In this document: piece after piece, positions 5,735 through 31,747 of the stretch | Position numbering within the stretch: the stretch's first letter is position 1 | Layout of the letters: every line of letters begins with the position of its first letter | Made by a program: the position numbers and the translations under genes | Notes under the pieces: generated by a model | What the model was told of the DNA's origin: nothing | Seen by the model: only the letters and a program-made list of their open reading frames with translations | The model's database searches: none | DNA from: Bryoerythrophyllum caledonicum | Taxonomy: Eukaryota > Streptophyta > Bryopsida > Pottiales > Pottiaceae | Direction: 5' to 3' | DNA: 64,000 nt | Assembly: GCA_963971425.1 (NCBI GenBank) | Contig: OZ020515.1 | Span: 36,842,371-36,906,370 of the forward strand

Positions 5735-6451
5735 TAAGGGCATCCTCACAGCAACGCTAGTCAGCTCTCGGGATATCCTTTCAACATGAAGTTTTCCGAT
5801 TACAGGCATCACCTGCCCATTTATGGATCCCCACCAACGTCCTCATGCTGCTAATTTTTTCAGTGGCACCCTTCAAATATTCCAGTACATGCCAAAAAGG
5901 GGCTCCTATCTACTGCAAGCAAACATGCCGTGGTTTATCTCGGAATAGCAGGTGAGTGTCAGTATGTACAGAAAAGCGTGTGTACATGCGCAAAAAAACG
6001 TATGTTTTTGGCAGCATGTGCGCAGGTCGCAAAAATGTTTTGTCTTGATGTACCAAAACTCATACGGTCTACCCTCTTTAAATGATACTCCACGGGAGCG
6101 GTCAAAAGCATAACACTTATCGAGGTATAACACATATAAAAAATAACACTTATAAATTTTGGAAAAAACAATTATAACACATATCGAGAATAACACTTAT
6201 AAGCCATGAGAAATAAATTTATAACATTTATCGAGGTATCAAACTTATAATACTTAAAAAATGAATGTGTAACAAATATTAAAAATCACAAGTTCTCTAA
6301 GACTTCAAATATAGTTTTAAAACTTTTATAATACTTAGAAAATAATTGCATATAAATATCAAAGATTCAATTTGTAAGATGTCAAACATAGATTCAAAAC
6401 CTTTATAAAACTAAATAGCGAAAGTACAAAAAAATATGAATAATAAATCAA

Positions 6452-8104
6452 CTACGTTGATTCAACATAAGAATCTATTGTGGTTTGTCGAGATTCTTTC
6501 ATGCGCCAATTGCAAATTTTCTTCTGTAGATCTTGTAAATTCTTCACATCCGAATGAACATTCTCCGATCGTTGTTGCAAGAAATTCTTCAAAGTCTCAA
6601 GGCAACGCTCTGCATCATTAAACCCTATCACATCTTCAACATCTATCGTATCCTCATCTAAATCACAATCTTGATCTTCAATGGGTAGATAGTCTAAAAT
6701 ATCCTCATCAGTGGGTTGATAAGGATTATTCAAATCAAATTCGAGCTCAAAATTGATGAACTCCTGAGCCTCCATAATATCATCTTCTTCCATATCAGAT
6801 GATAACAATGTTAATCGCTCAAGCAAGGCCGCCACTTCATCAACCTCTCTCAGACGGCTAACTTCTTCTCCCTGATTCACTACAACATTGGAAAAAATAC
6901 CCGTATGGCTCCAACAATTCTTAATTGTTTGAGCTGTAATCCTAAAACGCCATGCTCTTTCAACCATAATCACTACTTGATACACATCAATTTTGAATTT
7001 TTTTTCTGCCATAACACATTCTAATTGATGTTCTATCACTGATTTCCTGTAATGAGCCTTAAAAGAGGCTATAATGCCTGCATCCACAGGTTGAAAACGA
7101 CTTGTTGTATTTGGAGGCAGAAATAAAAGTTTTGTCACCCTCAACCGTGAAGCTACAGTTGGCAATTGATGACCAGAGAAATTATCAACAAGGAGAATTA
7201 CCTTCTCTCTTCCTGCCAAAACCATCTTCCTTTCAAAATCCATAATGAATTGTTCAAAGATCGTTGTTGTCATCCATGCCTTCTTATTCGCTAACCACGT
7301 AATGCCCAAGTTTTCTGGATTTAAAATATGCCTTGAAGTAAATGCTCGTGGTTTCAAATACTGATTTATAACTAATGGAGGAAGACAAATGCTTCCATCC
7401 CCATTTGCAGTCAAAGCCACCGTAATGCGCTCTTTTAGTTTCTTCTTCCCAGACACTCGTTTTGTAGCTAGAGTTCGATTAGGTTCTAATCTGTAAAAAA
7501 GACCAGTCTCATCCATATTAAAAACATCTTTAATGTCATATGTAGATACTATAGCCTTGATATGCTCCATCTGCTGCAAAACTGCTGGCGAAGTATCCGC
7601 TGAAGCATCTTCTCCATGCCGAACAAAACCTTTGATCTGAAATCTCCTCTTGAATTTCTGTACCCACCCATTCGAAAACTGAAGTTCCTTCTCACTTTCA
7701 TCTCTCGGTAATAATGCATAGAATCTCTTTGCCGAAGCTATCACAAGATCATCCGATAATGCAACACCATTCTCTTGCATTCTCACAAACCAATTGAAAA
7801 TCACCGTCTCTACTTCCGGACATTGTGCCTTCCTCATACGCTTGGAAGTACCCATATCTCCCAAACCAATAGAAGTCACCGATGTCTTCGGTTTCAACAA
7901 TCTACCAATCGTGACTTGAGAAGCAATATTGTTGAACTTGATATTCGCCCACTCACATAATGCTTTGTTGGTAATTTTGTGACCCCAAGACAATATCTCT
8001 TCACGATAAGAAATGATCTCTTGTTGCTCATGTAATGTAAATTCACGGCCCTTGATCGTGGCAACTCTTGGCGGACGCCCAATGCTAGACACCGGTAAAC
8101 TCAT
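6452..8104 (-). CDS. Pogo/Tigger-like transposase (CENP-B HTH + DDE)
   Basis: This 550-residue protein should bind the ends of its host element and cut and paste it. In order it shows an N-terminal helix-turn-helix region (about residues 20-70), a CENP-B-type DNA-binding region (about 87-160, ending in a WVQKFKRRF-type helix) and a DDE superfamily nuclease domain (about 190-400). The catalytic triad appears intact: Asp198 in FNMDETGLFYR, Asp307 in ILLVDNFSGH and Asp341 in NTTSRFQPVDAG, with 33 residues between the last two. The C-terminal ~100 residues are strongly acidic. The start is the first ATG (8104-8102), with A at -3. The open frame continues upstream to 8197 without an ATG and runs into telomere-like repeats, so I excluded it. 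No stop or frameshift is visible, which suggests recent activity. Confidence 0.88.
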   Translation of the reverse strand: MSLPVSSIGRPPRVATIKGREFTLHEQQEIISYREEILSWGHKITNKALCEWANIKFNNIASQVTIGRLLKPKTSVTSIGLGDMGTSKRMRKAQCPEVETVIFNWFVRMQENGVALSDDLVIASAKRFYALLPRDESEKELQFSNGWVQKFKRRFQIKGFVRHGEDASADTSPAVLQQMEHIKAIVSTYDIKDVFNMDETGLFYRLEPNRTLATKRVSGKKKLKERITVALTANGDGSICLPPLVINQYLKPRAFTSRHILNPENLGITWLANKKAWMTTTIFEQFIMDFERKMVLAGREKVILLVDNFSGHQLPTVASRLRVTKLLFLPPNTTSRFQPVDAGIIASFKAHYRKSVIEHQLECVMAEKKFKIDVYQVVIMVERAWRFRITAQTIKNCWSHTGIFSNVVVNQGEEVSRLREVDEVAALLERLTLLSSDMEEDDIMEAQEFINFELEFDLNNPYQPTDEDILDYLPIEDQDCDLDEDTIDVEDVIGFNDAERCLETLKNFLQQRSENVHSDVKNLQDLQKKICNWRMKESRQTTIDSYVEST

Positions 8105-8178
8105 CTTTGATTGAGGCCCTCCTCTCCCTATCCCTCTCCAAACTCCCCTCCTATCACTCTCCCTCTCCCAACTCCCCA

Positions 8179-8195
8179 CCCTAAACCCTAAACCC
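8179..8195 (-). promoter_or_regulatory. Telobox-like motif upstream of transposase
   Basis: Two and a half CCCTAAA units lie 75-91 bases upstream of the transposase ATG, inside the element. In plant host genes such telo-boxes near transcription starts are linked to expression in dividing cells; a role here is inference. Confidence 0.3.
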
Positions 8196-8205
8196 ACTAC
8201 TCTCC

Positions 8206-8424
8206 CTACTGTATCCTTCTCCCGACTTCCCTCCCAGACTCTCCCGACTCACAATTCAAACTTTGGTATATTTTTGTGCCAAAAAAACAAATGTGCTCCT
8301 TCACGGCCAATATGTGCTCCTTCACGGCCAATATGTGCTCCTTCACTCGCAAGATAGAATCCTTAAATTGCTCAGGAGTAAAATTCGACTTAATTAAACT
8401 TTGACCGTGTTCTTCAATGGACAT
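8206..8424 (-). other. Small open frame inside pogo element with repeated codons
   Basis: An ATG-started frame of about 72 codons begins MSIEEHGQSL and contains three near-tandem copies of the VKEHILA heptapeptide, encoded by a 21-base tandem repeat at about 8290-8347. It sits upstream of the transposase on the same strand. It could be a 5' exon, a separate peptide or non-coding; I do not recognise it. Confidence 0.25.
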
Positions 8425-9585
8425 TTCCACTGATCCACTCAAAAGTTTAACCCTTCAAAAGCACAAAGGAGAAAATTTAGTAGGACGTGACAAGACACAA
8501 AATCAATCATTTACCCTAAAACTACCTGCTGGACAATGAGTAATAAGACTGTAGATGTAAAAAAATACAACGTATCTACGAAATAGAGTTAGTGCAGATA
8601 CCCTATGTTTTGAAGACGAGACGCCAGGCTATCGAATTGATCCACGTGAACCCAATGCAATACATACACCAACTAACATTCACAAAAAAAAAACAAAAAA
8701 AACAACAGACTCTCCTTGACCCCGACTCCCCTCCCCAACCTCATGGACCCCAACTCCCCTCCCCGACCCCATGGACCGTGACTCCCACACTCCCTGGACC
8801 CCAACCGACTCTCTAGACCCCGACTCCCCCACCAGACTGCAGACTCCGTGATCGGACTGACAGACTCCCCGACTCCCTATTTCGACTTGCAGACTCCCTG
8901 CCTTCTAGACTCCTACTCTTAACTCCCTGTCCCGACTCCAATTCCAACTCCCCAAATCCGACTCCCCACTACAACTCCAAATTCTCCCAAAAACCTCTAA
9001 ACTCTCTCCCAAACCCCCTCCAATGTTCAAACACTAAATGACATTCAATCAAAGAGACCCTAAACACCATATTCACTTCATTTTTCAATAGAAAATGCAA
9101 CAAGTTAAGTACAAAAGTTATGGGATTATAGATAAAAGTGTGTAAATAAATATGGCCTCGATGTATTAGATGTACAATGTCGTTTTTCTCAAAAATAACA
9201 CTTATCGAGGTGAAATTAACAAAGAAGGGAGCGGAGAATGTGTTAACACTTAACACATAACACTTAGCAGTGTTAATTTTTTGGGAGCGAGATTTTTCAT
9301 AACATTTATCGAGGAATAACACTTATCGAGGTATCATTTAAAGAGGATAGACTGTATCCTGGTCCTGAAGGTGTCCCAACAAGTTGTTGCGGCACCTTCC
9401 GGATTCTTTGTCCCTCATATTGTTTTTAGGCCCTTAAACGACATTTAAAGGGTTCATTTTGGTGTTACTGTTGGAATAAAGTTCAGTGCCAGGGACTTAT
9501 CCAAGGGATGCATTGAGGATGATCTAACCTCTCTTCACCACACAACGCTAATTATGTTTTTCTAGAAAATTTGTATTAACGTTCA

Positions 9586-11242: not shown

Positions 11243-11419
11243 CCATTAGCATCTCCAAGGTATTCTTCTTGAACTAGCATTGGAGTAACCTTTTCATTCA
11301 AGAATGTTTGAGAAATCTTTGAGCTAGTGACTTCTAGTTCCTGCTCGTGATGAAACCCCCACTAGAGATACGTGCAATGAAATTTCCACCCATCCCACTG
11401 CTTACTTATGGGTTTCAAT

Positions 11420-11776
11420 AAGGTAAGCCTCCCCATAACCAACAAAAACCCATAGCCAACGCCTATAAAATTGGGGTATATCCAACCCTCTTCCATCCCA
11501 TTACCACCAACTCAGCTCCAAATGGAGGTTTGCTATTAGTCAAGACCCTTACTTTTGGTCATTGGTTATGGGGGGTACCTATTGCTGGCCACCCACTAAA
11601 CATGGCTGCACAATTTGAAAATCCATATTTAATTCAGTTTTCATCGAAAAAATATGAAATCACTTGGGTTGGAATTGCAATTCTATTGGCTATCACTGAA
11701 AAATAATAGTATAATTGTCTCCTCTCTCCATATATGCACATTCCTTAACTTGTCGGTTTTAGGGGGGCTTACCTTA
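11420..11776. mobile_element. MITE with AGGTAAGCC ends
   Basis: The left end reads AGGTAAGCCTCCCCATA and the complement of the right end reads AGGTAAGCCCCCCTA. TA flanks both sides, which could be a 2-bp duplication. Internal GGTTATGGGGG repeats the end motif at about 11563. Non-coding. Confidence 0.45.
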
Positions 11777-13070
11777 CTTCTTCTGCCAGGCTACAGACCG
11801 AGTCCAGTCTCTTTGTCATGTGAGTAGGGTGGTCAACATTAAAAAATGCCCGAAGTTGGTGTGCATAGCTATCAGTTTCTTGGAAATATCCAAGCCACAT
11901 GAGATCATTGCTTTGAGCAAGCAATATGCAATAGCAGTGAGAGCTCCTCTGGGAGAAAACTGTGCCACATGCCTATCAACACATAATGCGTGACAATTGC
12001 GCCTTAGAATTAGTGTATTTGGAAATCAAGTACTGGCCAGGTGTTTTGAACTTTGCAGCTCTGTACTTCATGGGCCACAACATGTGTGAAACTACTCATG
12101 TCTCTGGCTCGGAAAACTGACAAAGTAGCGTGTAGGTCTCTTTGGAAACATTGACAACCAAAGACCAAGCGAATGTGGGCCCTACCTTCCCAGCGCTTTG
12201 ATAGGGGAATGGCCATCTCAACACCAGCTGGAATTCTTGTCACATTCAGAGCGCCCCGCACTGACATGCTGCCTCGTGTTTTTGCAATGCCTTGATGTTT
12301 ACATGGCAAATTCTGAAATGGTCTTGGCATTATGGGAGCATGAACTTGTGAATCATCCATTCTTGTGCGGGCAAGAATTGATCAATATGGAGTGCAACAA
12401 AATGTGGTGGAAGTATTAGTTGATAACTGTTTTCATGACATTATTAACAACTATGTTGCTCCTCACTTACTATTTTGAGCTTTTTAGAAGCCGGTGAGTC
12501 AATCTCGTCACGAAAGATAAGAAAAGGCAATTTTTTTCCACATTCTACGTTTAGGGCAACACTTTCTACATGAGGAACGACAAGGTTGCTTGTAGTGTAA
12601 TTTGGATAGAGCCATCACTAAAGTTCACGTGCTTGTTTGCTTCATGTTGTGTTCCCCTCGTTGTTAGGATGCTCCATTTTCAAACATTGCTCGGTAGGTT
12701 TTGTTGTGGGGACGAAGACTTGTTGCTTGACTGTAGGATTATTATTCGCACATTGGCGACAAAGACTCAAAGCTGTTATTATTGCAAGGGTGACCACTCC
12801 CACTCCCACTGGGGATTTTTTTGGATTTTTTCGTTTTTAGGGTTTGATGTCAGGATTAACTTTTTGAAGTTTGATGCAAAGATGAGATGTAGAAAGATAC
12901 CCTAATAAATGTTAGAATTAACTTTTTGAAGATAACTTATTATGCAATAATATTTTAGGATTTAGAAGTAGGGTGTAGGGAGCCAACGAAGGGGTCATTC
13001 ACAACCCCGACCATGGCTATGAGCATCATGTGGTATTATCCTACGTGCTAGTCAATTTTGTACATAATAA
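11777..13070. other. Intergenic, nothing recognised
   Basis: Open frames of about 110 codons at 12010-12360 (minus) and 12570-12905 (plus) show no motif and no splice context that I would trust. Confidence 0.35.
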
Positions 13071-21391: not shown

Positions 21392-24300
21392 CTAAATTGC
21401 TGCAAGCGCGCCGTGCTTCGTAGTACAATCCCAGCTGACCTCGAAGCTCTTGCCAATGGGCAAGTTGAGGTTGGTGATCGTCAAGGACGAGTCTCCGTTG
21501 TTGAAGCTCACCTTGGCCGCGTTGTGGATTTGCCCATTCACAAGAACAGACGCGGGCGAGGCGGCCGCGCCGAGCACCGACACAGTTTGCAGGACGAATC
21601 CCTGCTTGAGAGCGTACGCGCCCTCCGTCACGTTGGCCGTCAAAATGTAGCGTCCATGGCCCCTGAACGCCTGATACTCGACGTAAGTTGCAGTGCCGTT
21701 CTTGACCTCCATCTGCAGCTGGTCGTCGTCGTCGACGAAAAGCTCGCCAGTCGCGACGTCCACTTGGTCGCAGACAGCGGACGCCGACATGCACGACGTA
21801 GGCTCGGGAGGCAAGGCGACGAGAAGCGTGAATGGCGTCTTGCGCGCCTCCGCGGTGCTCCAGGCGGGCTCCTGCATGGGGAGGATGGCGCCCGCCCTGA
21901 CGTGCACGTTGATCTTGTCCAGCGGCGCCTCCAGGGAGTGGAAGGAGCTGTTGGCGGTGGCGTGGATCACTTCCTTGGGGTCGAACAAGTTGTACCAGAC
22001 GCCCGCGGGGAAGTAGGGGTTCACGGCCACTTGGCCCGCCTGCAGCACGGGCGAGACGAGGATGTCGGTTCCCAGCAGGAACTGGTCGCCGATCCCCCAC
22101 GTCCGCGGATCCTCGGGGACTGCGAAGAAGAGCGGCCGCGCCAGTGGCGCGCCTGTCGTCCGCGCGCCGTACATCAAGGTGTAGAAGAACGGTAGCAGCC
22201 GGTACCTCCATGAGTACACAAACTTGGCCGTTTCGGTCACCGACTCCCAAAGATAAAACTCTTGCGGTCCCACGTGAATGTCGGAGTGATCCCTCGAGAA
22301 TGGATAGAATGCACCAACCTGGAATTATAGGAGAAACGTCATTAGGAGCTGTATCCTAGCATCAGTCCATGTACCTTTGCATATCAAACGAACAAAACCA
22401 TTCTAGCTTTAGTTGTTACCTGAGTCCACCGAACGCAGAGCTCTTCATTAGTTAGGAAGTTGAAGCCACAAATATCAGCTCCCACCATCGGCACTCCGAA
22501 CATGCCCGAGTTGATCAAGCTCACAATGGAGTACTGAAGGTCGCCCCATGTGGCTCCGTTGTCCCCAGTCCAGTGCGCAGCGTATGAACCGGATCCCAAA
22601 AACATGGACCGAGCCAGCACAAACGGCCGCTTCCCATTCAACTGCACGAAAAGATTCGATCAGAAAGAGGCAACTCCATGTATATTGAACTTACAGCTAA
22701 CCAGGTAGGATAGTGAGTTTACGGACGTGTTTTATTACCTCCTTGAGAGCTCTGTAAGTGGCGAGACCTTCACTGAATCCGTACACATTGTGAGTATCAT
22801 ACGCCCGGATGCCGTTGTAGTGCTCACAGTTCATGGCCATGGTGTGCGAGTACAGAGGGCGGTGCACGCCAAGGGAGTTGATGTGATAAGGAGGGTCGTC
22901 CCAGCGGTCCACGTTCGTGTTGTCGCAGATCATGCAGCACTCGTCGATCTGGGGACACACCTTGATCTCCGGAGGATAGTAGCAAGTCGGCCCACCGCAG
23001 AAGTTGGCAGGCTCGTTCATGTCGAGCCAGAGCCCGTCAAACGGGATCACCTTGTAAAACTCCGCTACCTCCGTGGACCAGAACTCCTGCGCCTTCGGGT
23101 GGAGGAAATCCGGAATGTTGGTCGCTCCCGGCCACACCTGCGCAATGTAGCGGTGGCCTGTCGCGTTTCGCATGAAGATGTCAAGCTTGTCGCCGCGCGC
23201 GTACGTCGAGTAGTTCGTGTCAATCTTGATTCCTGCAGCGTTCGTGTTAGTCATCCTTCCTACATCAACCATCGATTGGAGTATGACGTTCGATTGCTAG
23301 GATCCTCTAGCAACATTGAAAACAAGTTGGTACATTCTATGTGGATGATTTTAGGATTCTTACCTGGGTCCAGGATCATGATGAACTTTTGGTGGTTGGC
23401 GTGCAAGTTGTCGACAAACGACCTCAGCTTCTCCGCAGGGTAATTCACAGGGTCTAGGGTGAAATCCTTATAGTGATCCATGTGATCAATGTCCGACCAC
23501 ATGGACTCAACCGGAATCTTCACCTCCTTGTACCGCCTCATCACCGTCTCCAGCTGCTCCACGCTTTTGTACCCGTAACGCGACTGATGAAAGCCTGCAA
23601 ACCACACAACCAGTCAAAGAAAGAAATCTCCAATCCGCAAAATCGACACAAAACAGAGTAATTGTCTACAAAACAGAGGGGATAGAGAGTGTTGCATACC
23701 AAGCACCCAGTAAGGCATCGAGGCCGGTCGGCCAACAAGCTGCGTATACTGATCCACAATATCCAAAGGCTTAGGTCCGGCGAAGAAGTAGAAGTCGAAG
23801 ATCCCACCGATGACCTTGAACGTGATGGAGTCGTCGCCATAGTCCACATCCATGCCGTTGCTGTTCATGAGGGCAACGCTGTGAGCGAGTCCGCCATCGC
23901 GCACGTCCATCACGAACGGATAAGTGCCGTAGAGATCAATGTCGATGTTCCAGCTCCCAATGTCGGTGGCCCAGAGCGTGTACTGGCGGCCGTGCGCCAG
24001 CCGCAGCCCGTCGGGGCGGGTGCTCTCGCCCAACCCATACAGAGCAGACTTGTACGGCAGCTGGGAGGAGATTTCCAGGTACTGGTCCTTGAACACCATG
24101 TTGTTGAACCCGGGCTTGGCCTCGCTCTTGCTCGGTGAGGACGTGTTGAACAGAACCTCCCCGTTGGATTTCCGCACCACGGCGAACCCGAACGGCTCGG
24201 CTATGTACCGAAACTCCAGAGGATGGCTGCTTGCTGCCACTCCCTTCTTCTCGACAGGGCCGAGCTTGCGGGAGGTCCTGGAGCCGCTCTCAACGCCCTC

Positions 24301-24751
24301 CACTCCCTCCCGCGGGAGCAACATCTGCGGAACCTCATAGCGCTCAGAGTCCGCGTCCGTCACGTGCACTTGAAGACGCTCACCGCTCTGATACCTGATA
24401 AAAAGAAAACACCGTCAACAGCTACTAGAATCAAACCCACCCCAACCTAGAAACTCAAACACCACAGCCTGGCCATAAGCAATCAAACCCGAACACACTG
24501 CACAATACTAACCTGGCCACAAGCTTGAGACGCTTGATATCCTTCCCCAGCGTCTGAGGCGTCTCCTTGATCACCTCGAGGTAGGCCAGGACGCCATCGG
24601 CGCCCTTCAAGTCCTCGATCGACACGAGCTTGTACCCGCTCCCCACAGCAGCACCAGACTGGCTCACGAGACCACCAGTAGCGCTCCCATTCACCAAAAC
24701 CAGAGCTGCAAACGCGAGACCAAAGAGCAAAGCGGCGGATGATAACCCCAT
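21392..24751 (-). CDS. XYL1: Alpha-xylosidase-like glycoside hydrolase family 31
   Basis: A predicted 933-residue secreted enzyme that removes alpha-linked xylose (or glucose) from oligosaccharides; the best fit is the plant apoplastic alpha-xylosidase acting on xyloglucan. Exons: 24751-24513, 24394-23700, 23594-23370, 23232-22739, 22641-22420, 22318-21392; all five introns are GT-AG and keep frame. The N-terminus has a hydrophobic signal peptide ([20 protein letters not shown]). The GH31 nucleophile is Asp457 in [13 protein letters not shown] and the acid/base is Asp578 in [11 protein letters not shown]. The cysteine-rich insert just after the nucleophile (CGGPTC...CP...CC..C) followed by WDDPPY is the pattern I associate with XYL1 rather than alpha-glucosidase. 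Length agrees with plant family members (about 900-930). Exons are GC-rich against AT-rich flanks. The choice between xylosidase and glucosidase is not certain. Confidence 0.88.
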
Positions 24752-25330: not shown

Positions 25331-26539
25331 CTTTGACAAGTAGGGGCCAAAAGTGACCTCTGCGTAAGGTATCCTATTGTTGATTTTGGGCTAGAGATTT
25401 AGAGATTTGGATCATTTGGAGGATTGTACATATAAGTTACATTACTACGGTATATTCATAACATTTTAGAATCAACGTTGAGGGTACCTCTTATGTTTTT
25501 GGAATAGACTCAAGTGAATGGTTCTTTTCTAGTAGGCCACATTCACCCTTTTCACCAAAGCTTATCTATTTCTTCAATGTGATAGCCATTTCCTTCATAT
25601 GCATTAGGTTCTCCAAGTTTGGTCCTAATAGTTGTAAGCTCATTTTAAAATCATCTTCTTTTGTTGATTATGAAACGAATGGTTGCCTCAGCACTAGTTC
25701 TTTAAACTTATATGTATTTAGTTGAATGCCTCTTGATTATGCCTCTCTTGGCATAACCAAGCCGTTTCATTCTTTTTATCAAAGAGATTCAAATAGTTCA
25801 TTCATTTCTAGTGAAATGATCATTGTCTTGTTATGATTGATGGCTTTTCATCCAAATTTTTAAAAGAAAAACTTGTCAAATTTGGGTTCAAATGTAGCCA
25901 TAATGAAAGGGCCTTTACGATCCAATTAGATGGTTTAAATTGTGTTTATTGTAAATAGTATCTATAATATAACAAAAGGAACTTTCATAAAGATTTCATA
26001 AACTTTCAAAAACTTTCGATTACTTCATTACTCATTGCATTAGAACGAGCAGTTTCAAAGTGTTTTTGATGTGAAAATGCCTTGGGCCTTTACGGGTTCA
26101 CACACTTCTAATTATCTTTTCATCTTCTCCGCCATATGAACCCTTGCCTCACACAACCATGCCTTTGGCTGAAATTCTTCAGTGCACTTCTCCACCAGTA
26201 AAGTGGCCCTTACATGAAGTCACATTCTCAATCTGCAAGTAGAATGTTGCAACACCTTGCATGTGACACCCATCACACTGGTACTCTTGTTCATTCCAAC
26301 ACCGGCTGCATTTCTTCACTTGTCTAGAGCCCATCTAATAGTATTGTGGTGTTGCAACAACTGTCACATGGCAAGGATGACCCCAATGTAACTGACATTA
26401 TGGGAATGCAAACGGGTGCAGTTTGGAAATGTAAGCTTATTAGAGTTTTCTTGAAAGTAAAGGATCTTTCGCCACGAATCTTAGGGTCTTATGTTAATAA
26501 TTGGGACTACATGTACATGGTGACTTGGTTTGGGAAAGG
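25331..26539. other. Intergenic with a fragment of the long TTAA family
   Basis: At about 25975-26097 the sequence matches the right end of the long family (ATTAGAACGAGCAGTTTCAA, then CCTTGGGCCTTTACGGGTT). No gene is recognised elsewhere. Confidence 0.4.
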
Positions 26540-26830
26540 TGTGGGGGAACCACCAGTCAATCTTTTGAGAATTTAGGGTACTACATGGGAGCTTTAGCTT
26601 GCATTGGGTAGGACCCAAGAGCATTGATTGTTGTGCATCTCGTTGGTGCAGAAAAATGGAGCATGAGATTTTTGGACGTCCATTCTCGTGCACAAAAAAG
26701 TTTCGTCATATCTGGCACCGTATTCCTACTGGCTTTCCGGTTTGGGGTGCACTTTGAGGAAAACTATATTGTGGACACTAAAATAGGCCTCATTGAAGTA
26801 AGGGTATGTTCGCACTTGGTGTTTGAGTGG
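26540..26830 (+). repeat. Dispersed repeat family (three copies)
   Basis: Shares TTTAGGGTACTACATGGGAG, GCATTGGGTAGGACCCAA, a CACCGTATTCCTACTGGC block and GAGGAAAACT with 37110-37350 in the same orientation; the first part is found inverted at 27935-28110. The class is unknown. Confidence 0.5.
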
Positions 26831-30756: not shown

Positions 30757-31747
30757 ATGGCGGAGCGGGACGGCGTGAGGGATTGGTACCTGAGGCAGCA
30801 CGCAGCTCGAGGGCCTGCTAAGGCCGTCAGTGTTGCTGTAAACCCCACTTCTTAAACCCTGCTGTGCTTAAACCCTGAGTTTCAGTTCTGGAATTGACGC
30901 CGCTGCTGGGTTTCGTCAGGATGGGGAGAAGAAGAAGAAGGCCCTTGGTCCGGATGAGCGGAATTACGCGAGGCTCTCTCCAGTTGTGCTCAACGGGCCA
31001 CTTTCCTCAAACTTGCAGGTTTGTTTTTTCATCACAGGATATGCGTTTGGTGAATTATGATTGTGCTTCCTGTTTTCACTTTCTCACCGTTTCTTTTTTT
31101 CTCGTTCACAGCTGCGCAGGGACAGTCCGAACGTAGGAGTGGATACAGTCGTGCAGGAGCTTCTTGCTAGTAACACAAAAACAGCAAGCAACATCGCTAG
31201 CACGATCGAGAACCGCCTCCTGGACAGGCCTTACTTGCTCGACAACCCCGCAACGCACGGCGGCGCAGCAGAGAGGGCCAAGGACCGAGCACTCCGCGCT
31301 CGCAGCAAGAGATCCGCCAAGCACTTGTCCATGCGGCAGCATCGCCAGGCCGGGTCATTGGACCTCCCCGCCGAGTTTGTCAAGTACAGCCTCTTCCTTC
31401 CGATGCAGGAGATGTGGCAGAGCTATGCGAGGAGCTTGGTGTCGGAGTGCAACGATGGCAGTGTGCAGCCGCGGCTCCTGGCAGCGGACCTGCACGGCGC
31501 CATGATGGCGGTGGTGGAGGCGAAGAGCCGGAGCCATGTGGGCGTGCAGGGCATCATGATCCGGGAAACGGAGCAGACGTTTGGGATCCTGACCTTGCAA
31601 GACAAGATGCGCGTGGTGCCCAAGGCGGGCGCCGTGTTCATGCTGCAGGTGGACACGCTGCGAGTGACGCTGATCGGGAACAACCTGTTCTCACGGGAGC
31701 TGCACCCCAGAATGCAACAGCAGACGAAGCCCAGCGTTGCGCTTTGA
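30757..31747 (+). CDS. POP4: Ribonuclease P/MRP protein subunit POP4 (Rpp29)
   Basis: An RNA-binding protein subunit of RNase P and RNase MRP, which process tRNA 5' ends and pre-rRNA in the nucleus. Exons: 30757-30825, 30920-31018 and 31112-31747; the first donor could instead be at 30838 (GTAAAC), adding four residues, since both keep phase 0. The product is about 267-271 residues. The C-terminal half is the conserved p29 domain: FVKYSLFLPMQEMW, then LLAADLHGAMMAVVEAKS and HVGVQGIMIRETEQTFGILT with KMRVVPKAG. The N-terminal part is lysine/arginine-rich (GEKKKKALGPDERNY), as in other family members. The ATG context is good (G at -3 and +4). It converges on MTHFR, leaving about 1 kb between stop codons. 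Confidence 0.85.

Follow-up and report, generated by a model that had tools for sequence, protein, structure and literature searches.

Organization of the element

The window analysed here, a stretch of 64 kb in total, contains a complete transposable element whose features are listed in Table 1. The initial annotation had described it as a pogo-type element framed by TA duplications, with 24-base ends that differ at two positions and an uninterrupted 550-codon transposase carrying Asp residues 198, 307 and 341. All of this was reproduced. The coordinates are exact, the ends mismatch at 2 of 24 positions, the three residues are present in the minus-strand frame, and the Pfam matches to DDE_1 and HTH_Tnp_Tc5 together with the TA target agree with the pogo group.

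Table 1. Features of the pogo-type element, in window coordinates.
Feature	Position	Strand	Remarks
Whole element	6065..9354	- (strand of the transposase)	3,290 bp; supported by TA flanks, ends and empty site
Left TA target duplication	6063..6064	.	Single TA at related empty site L080
Right TA target duplication	9355..9356	.	Single TA at related empty site L080
Left terminal inverted repeat (TIR)	6065..6088	+	Starts CGGT; CAGT in 37 of 42 recognizable left ends
Right TIR	9331..9354	-	One base seen in 1 of 41 recognizable right ends
Subterminal motif AACACTTATCGAGGTA	6112..6127	+	0 mismatches
Subterminal motif	6176..6191	+	4 mismatches
Subterminal motif	6223..6238	+	1 mismatch
Subterminal motif	9197..9212	+	1 mismatch
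Subterminal motif	9301..9316	+	2 mismatches
Subterminal motif	9318..9333	+	0 mismatches; extends into right TIR
Transposase frame	6452..8104	-	550 codons and stop, ATG to TAG, stop-free
HTH_Tnp_Tc5 DNA-binding domain, aa 96-159	7628..7819	-	Pfam 2.6e-13
DDE_1 endonuclease domain, aa 224-398	6911..7435	-	Pfam 3.1e-38
Asp 198, first presumed catalytic residue	7511..7513	-	Assigned by position
Asp 307, second presumed catalytic residue	7184..7186	-	
Asp 341, third presumed catalytic residue	7082..7084	-	
C-terminal PIP-like motif, aa 540-547, QTTIDSYV	6464..6487	-	Compared with the consensus in PMC5371812

The last two presumed catalytic residues of the transposase have 33 residues between them. 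Its amino acids 15-155 match the structure solved for the Abp1 DNA-binding domain from fission yeast (2.5e-9). The transposase gave no match to CENP-B_N in Pfam at E-values up to 1, HTH_ABP1_N was not among its Pfam matches, and the NCBIfam search returned no match. HTH_ABP1_N was seen in three of the four relatives scanned, below its cut-off (E 0.09-0.13).

A PCNA-binding motif with the consensus Qxx[I/L/M]xxF[F/Y] has been reported in pogo, Tigger and Lemi1, and the review that describes it calls its relevance unclear (PMC5371812). Of 48 aligned rows, 31 have QTTIDSYF, the family version of this PIP-like motif, and 4 are gapped; the element itself has QTTIDSYV, without the last aromatic residue. 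Four sister proteins have QTTIDSFF (in two of them), QSTMDYFF and QSTMDSFF, all with two aromatic residues. The change to QTTIDSYV may impair the element.

The subterminal motif AACACTTATCGAGGTA was chosen from the repeats of the element itself, where it occurs six times, always no farther than about 180 bp from an end. In 200 simulated sequences it occurred 0.35 times on average and at most twice. Across the 48 copies described below, the averages are 2.5 in the left part, 0.06 in the middle and 2.8 in the right part. Between the start of the transposase and the right end, positions 8117-9020 are C-rich, with degenerate CTCCCCGACTCC-like repeats, and this region, which may be a leader or a promoter, differs in length among the copies.

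Near the element, the window contains exons of two host genes, one for a family 31 glycosyl hydrolase (21395-24369, minus strand) and one for the p29 subunit of RNase P/MRP (31061-31744, plus strand). Rfam gave no match anywhere in the 64 kb. A repeat family of about 70-80% identity, with one match at 94%, occupies positions ~0.1-0.7, 10.1-10.7, 14.7-15.6, 16.2-17.1, 36.5-36.9 and 58.8-59.4 kb and also adjoins several copies of the element. Another repeat, of 360 bp (~11418-11777), is 90-94% identical to sequences beside the copies L020, L026 and L043; one of these occurrences is an inverted pair.

Copies, ends and target sites

A DNA search of the 437-Mb assembly (894 contigs) found at least 39 other places where the main pieces are 87-96% identical to the element (best 40 of 862 candidates scored). 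The copy set used below consists of these 39 fetched places, 8 extra copies and the element itself, 48 in total. TA is found on both sides in 39 of the 48 copies. Among the first 40, this is the case in 34, and the remaining six are without a recognizable end or TA pair; both ends could be located in five of the eight later copies, and all five have TA on both sides. In the 39 copies with both ends, the 24-bp ends differ at no position in 11, at one in 17, at two in 7 (the element belongs here), at three in 3 and at six in 1. The 20-base end, with up to two mismatches allowed, occurs 339 times genome-wide and its reversed control pattern only 5 times, which rules out a chance inverted repeat.

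A protein search gave 84 matches (best 79 of 1,569 candidates scored), some of which belong to further families with about 57-62% identity; in these families, six near-full-length matches are stop-free. L076, L077, L078 and L079 are stop-free frames from sister pogo families with 57-62% identity; L077 has Glu at the position of the first presumed catalytic Asp, and the other three keep Asp.

When the flanks of the element are joined with one TA, they align straight through the junction with L080, another locus of this chromosome, which has a single TA and is 80% identical. The loci L081 and L082 match across the junction more weakly and have CA at the site. Related element-free loci with a single TA were also found for the insertions L016, L025 and L036. 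The empty version of the L036 site (L036 is on C7) lies in the window itself at ~26516-26655, near 26,585, where the alignment is less clean.

These searches dispose of the outcomes that, according to the initial annotation, would have spoken against a mobile element. Other copies sharing the ends exist, and empty sites with a single TA exist for the element and for three further insertions. A conserved single-copy host gene is ruled out by the copy number, the TIRs and the target site duplication (TSD). The copy number speaks to the family and not to a recent exaptation of this one copy, which is considered below. The element thus differs from a domesticated host gene, for which a single copy, no TIR or TSD, and purifying selection are expected.

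Age and wear

The initial annotation took the element for a young copy, and this we reject. In whole-element comparisons with 39 other copies, the smallest K2P distance is 4.5%, and the element's terminal branch (0.027) is the 26th shortest of 40. These distances cover the first 40 copies. The coding tree, with 47 copies, also takes in the 8 extra ones; there the element's branch of 0.017 is the 22nd shortest and its nearest copy, L014, is at 0.031. L045 aligned poorly and was omitted from the coding tree, the codon model, the lesion count and the singleton and pairwise omega counts.

Both ends of the element carry a private change. Among ends picked by a match of the neighbouring bases, with badly decayed ends left out, the left start CGGT is found in 1 of 42 recognizable left ends, and base 8 of the right end in 1 of 41 recognizable right ends. 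Hence the suggestion that this copy is possibly active is weakened, both by the private end changes and by the departure from the prevailing PIP-like motif. We conclude that the element is a complete but fairly old, ageing copy with altered ends. Because both ends and the putative PCNA-binding motif carry private changes, its present mobility is probably low or nil.

The open frame

An uninterrupted frame is present in 4 of the 47 copies counted, namely the element, L015, L026 and L027. The last three have branches of 0.005-0.010 in the coding tree, shorter than that of the element. Seven other copies have terminal branches about as long as the element's, and every one of them has between one and six stops or frameshifts, so the frame of the element has stayed open unusually long.

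The substitutions were compared in several ways. Pairwise omega between the element and six copies is 0.41-0.71, the median over 739 pairs being 0.68. The ratio of nonsynonymous to synonymous singletons is 2:5 in the element, 255:74 in the copies without an intact frame and 8:1 in L015, L026 and L027 together. The singleton rule was stricter than the one behind a separate count of private substitutions, and the two counts differ. Under a codon likelihood model fitted to 47 copies, omega was 0.46 on the element branch, 0.85 on broken tips, 0.66 on internal branches and 1.05 on the tips of these three further intact copies. The value of 0.46 is not significantly different from an omega of 1 (2 delta lnL 3.54) or from the rate of the broken tips (2.20). 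Omega does differ from 1 on internal branches (2 delta lnL 6.55) and on broken tips (5.76), and the latter are therefore not a clean neutral yardstick. Purifying selection on the frame of the element is suggested by these figures, short of significance.

Short elements and probable movement in trans

Of 20 unpaired exact ends picked for inspection, 18 turned out to lie in short elements of 441-481 bp, mostly 459 bp; one of the other two belongs to a longer copy and one is partnerless within the fetched stretch. All 18 miniature elements (MITEs) have TA on both sides. Their median pairwise difference is 2.0%, and the closest pair differs by 0.2%. The genome holds at least 40 copies of the ~459-bp MITE (for example, L059:33-492). 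Its left 76 bp are identical to L009 and L023, its right 159 bp reach no more than 94% identity with any copy of the element, and its middle of ~225 bp has no match in the window or in the 40 element loci compared. The MITEs retain the subterminal motif. They share the ends of the element and, judging by their divergence, appear to have moved more recently than it has.

Two of the long copies, L033 and L038 (C7), are 92 kb apart in opposite orientation and differ by a K2P distance of only 0.006. Their flanks are no more similar than a shuffled control, which rules out a segmental duplication. The two copies share three frame lesions, one stop and two frameshifts. Double insertion of a copy that was already broken points to a transposase supplied from elsewhere, and the pair appears to represent recent short-range movement in trans. 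More generally, the low divergence, the different flanks and the shared frame lesions suggest that the transposase acted in trans on broken copies and MITEs until recently.

Relation to known systems

The family is best read as a Lemi-type pogo family with Emigrant-like MITEs, a known arrangement, to which we assign it by domains and structure and not by a tree. As the survey describes it, Lemi has TIRs of up to 40 bp, elements of 1.2-5.2 kb, transposases of 300-977 aa, a DDE_1 domain with DD29-42D spacing, and HTH_Tnp_Tc5 alone or with HTH_ABP1_N (PMC7386202). The TIR of 24 bp, the length of 3,290 bp and the protein of 550 aa fall within these ranges, as do the HTH_Tnp_Tc5 and DDE_1 domains and the spacing of 33 residues between Asp 307 and Asp 341, whose role in catalysis is putative. 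The TA target duplication is seen in 34 of 40 copies and is backed by the single-TA empty sites. Lemi, named after Arabidopsis Lemi1, resembles the element in its TA target, its short TIR and its single transposase with HTH_Tnp_Tc5 and DDE_1 (PMC7386202). A C-terminal PIP motif is reported for Lemi1 (PMC5371812), and most of the family has a PIP-like motif there, which in this particular copy is without the last aromatic residue. The animal elements Tigger and pogoR are like it in their HTH and DDE architecture and TA target, and a PIP motif is reported in pogo and Tigger (PMC5371812). According to the survey, they have CENP-B_N with HTH_Tnp_Tc5 or HTH_Tnp_Tc5 alone (PMC7386202), whereas no CENP-B_N match was obtained here.

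The likeness to Emigrant and its proposed source Lemi1 is that a coding pogo element is accompanied by short non-coding elements that have its ends and its subterminal repeats, and the ~459-bp elements have TA duplications as well. It is a likeness of arrangement; the ~459-bp MITE is a separate family with an unmatched middle. The Lemi1/Emigrant pair serves as the model (Feschotte and Mouches 2000 and Loot et al. 2006, both as listed in PMC5454002), and the paper by Loot et al. is said to claim in its title that Lemi1 proteins bind TIRs and subterminal motifs.

The initial annotation considered an intact coding pogo element unusual in a plant, and this premise is only partly fair. The 2020 survey, in its statements on land plants, treats Lemi as a single small clade that has not amplified significantly there, and as the only such group; the same survey lists Lemi in 23 eudicot species (PMC7386202). 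We found no published account of this family or its MITEs in a search made without the species name, which says little.

Interpretation

We consider it very probable that the element is complete but ageing and belongs to a multi-copy Lemi-type pogo cut-and-paste family in which broken copies and MITEs were moved in trans until recently, and that this copy has acquired private changes in its ends and PIP motif. In such a family, the two-part helix-turn-helix region of the transposase would bind both the terminal 24 bp and the repeats of the subterminal motif, and the Asp triad would cut the DNA. Insertion at a TA would leave TA on both sides, and the PIP motif would link the transposase to PCNA. 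Intact copies would have supplied the transposase with which broken copies and the ~459-bp MITEs were moved until recently.

Several observations count against the ageing of this copy. Its intact frame is more than simple decay predicts, given the seven comparable copies that are all broken. With cut-and-paste movement, a long terminal branch can hide the fact that a copy has jumped recently. An element may also tolerate two mismatches in its 24-bp ends; at least one is present in 28 of the 39 copies in which both ends were located. In favour of a young copy, autonomous and mobile at present, are the open 550-codon frame, the Asp triad and the TA duplications; a purely cut-and-paste lineage could combine the long branch with a recent move, and the coding-branch omega of 0.46 may be added. 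The distance of 4.5% to the nearest of 39 copies, the 26th place among 40 branches and the private changes in both ends and the PIP motif speak against such a copy, which we regard as quite unlikely.

The open frame could also mean that the element has stopped jumping and that the plant has kept its transposase, the ends decaying while the frame is under purifying selection. Such an early domestication is favoured by the altered ends, by the breakage of all seven comparable copies, and by the singleton ratio and omega of the element branch. Yet an omega below 1 is not significant in either comparison and the counts are low, singletons stand at 8:1 in L015, L026 and L027, whose frames are intact as well, and TIRs, TSD and subterminal motifs are all still recognizable; we find this reading highly improbable. 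It is very doubtful, too, that the element is of a pogo type outside Lemi, for example near Tigger or in an unnamed plant clade. The transposase has no CENP-B_N match at E-values up to 1 and matches the Abp1 structure, HTH_ABP1_N appears below threshold in three of four relatives, and the host is a plant. Land plants have only Lemi as far as the survey describes them (PMC7386202), but two plant clades are placed in pogo elsewhere, with Selaginella included (PMC7325037).

The genome as a whole has one family with at least 48 copies, other families with stop-free frames at about 57-62% protein identity, and MITEs with the same ends. It is therefore a good natural system for questions about Lemi elements and their MITEs. 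Such a system could be used to ask how a Lemi transposase recognizes MITEs and how much end sequence is sufficient, the MITEs here having kept 76 and 159 bp. It could also be asked whether the conserved PCNA-binding motif is relevant to the gain in copy number.
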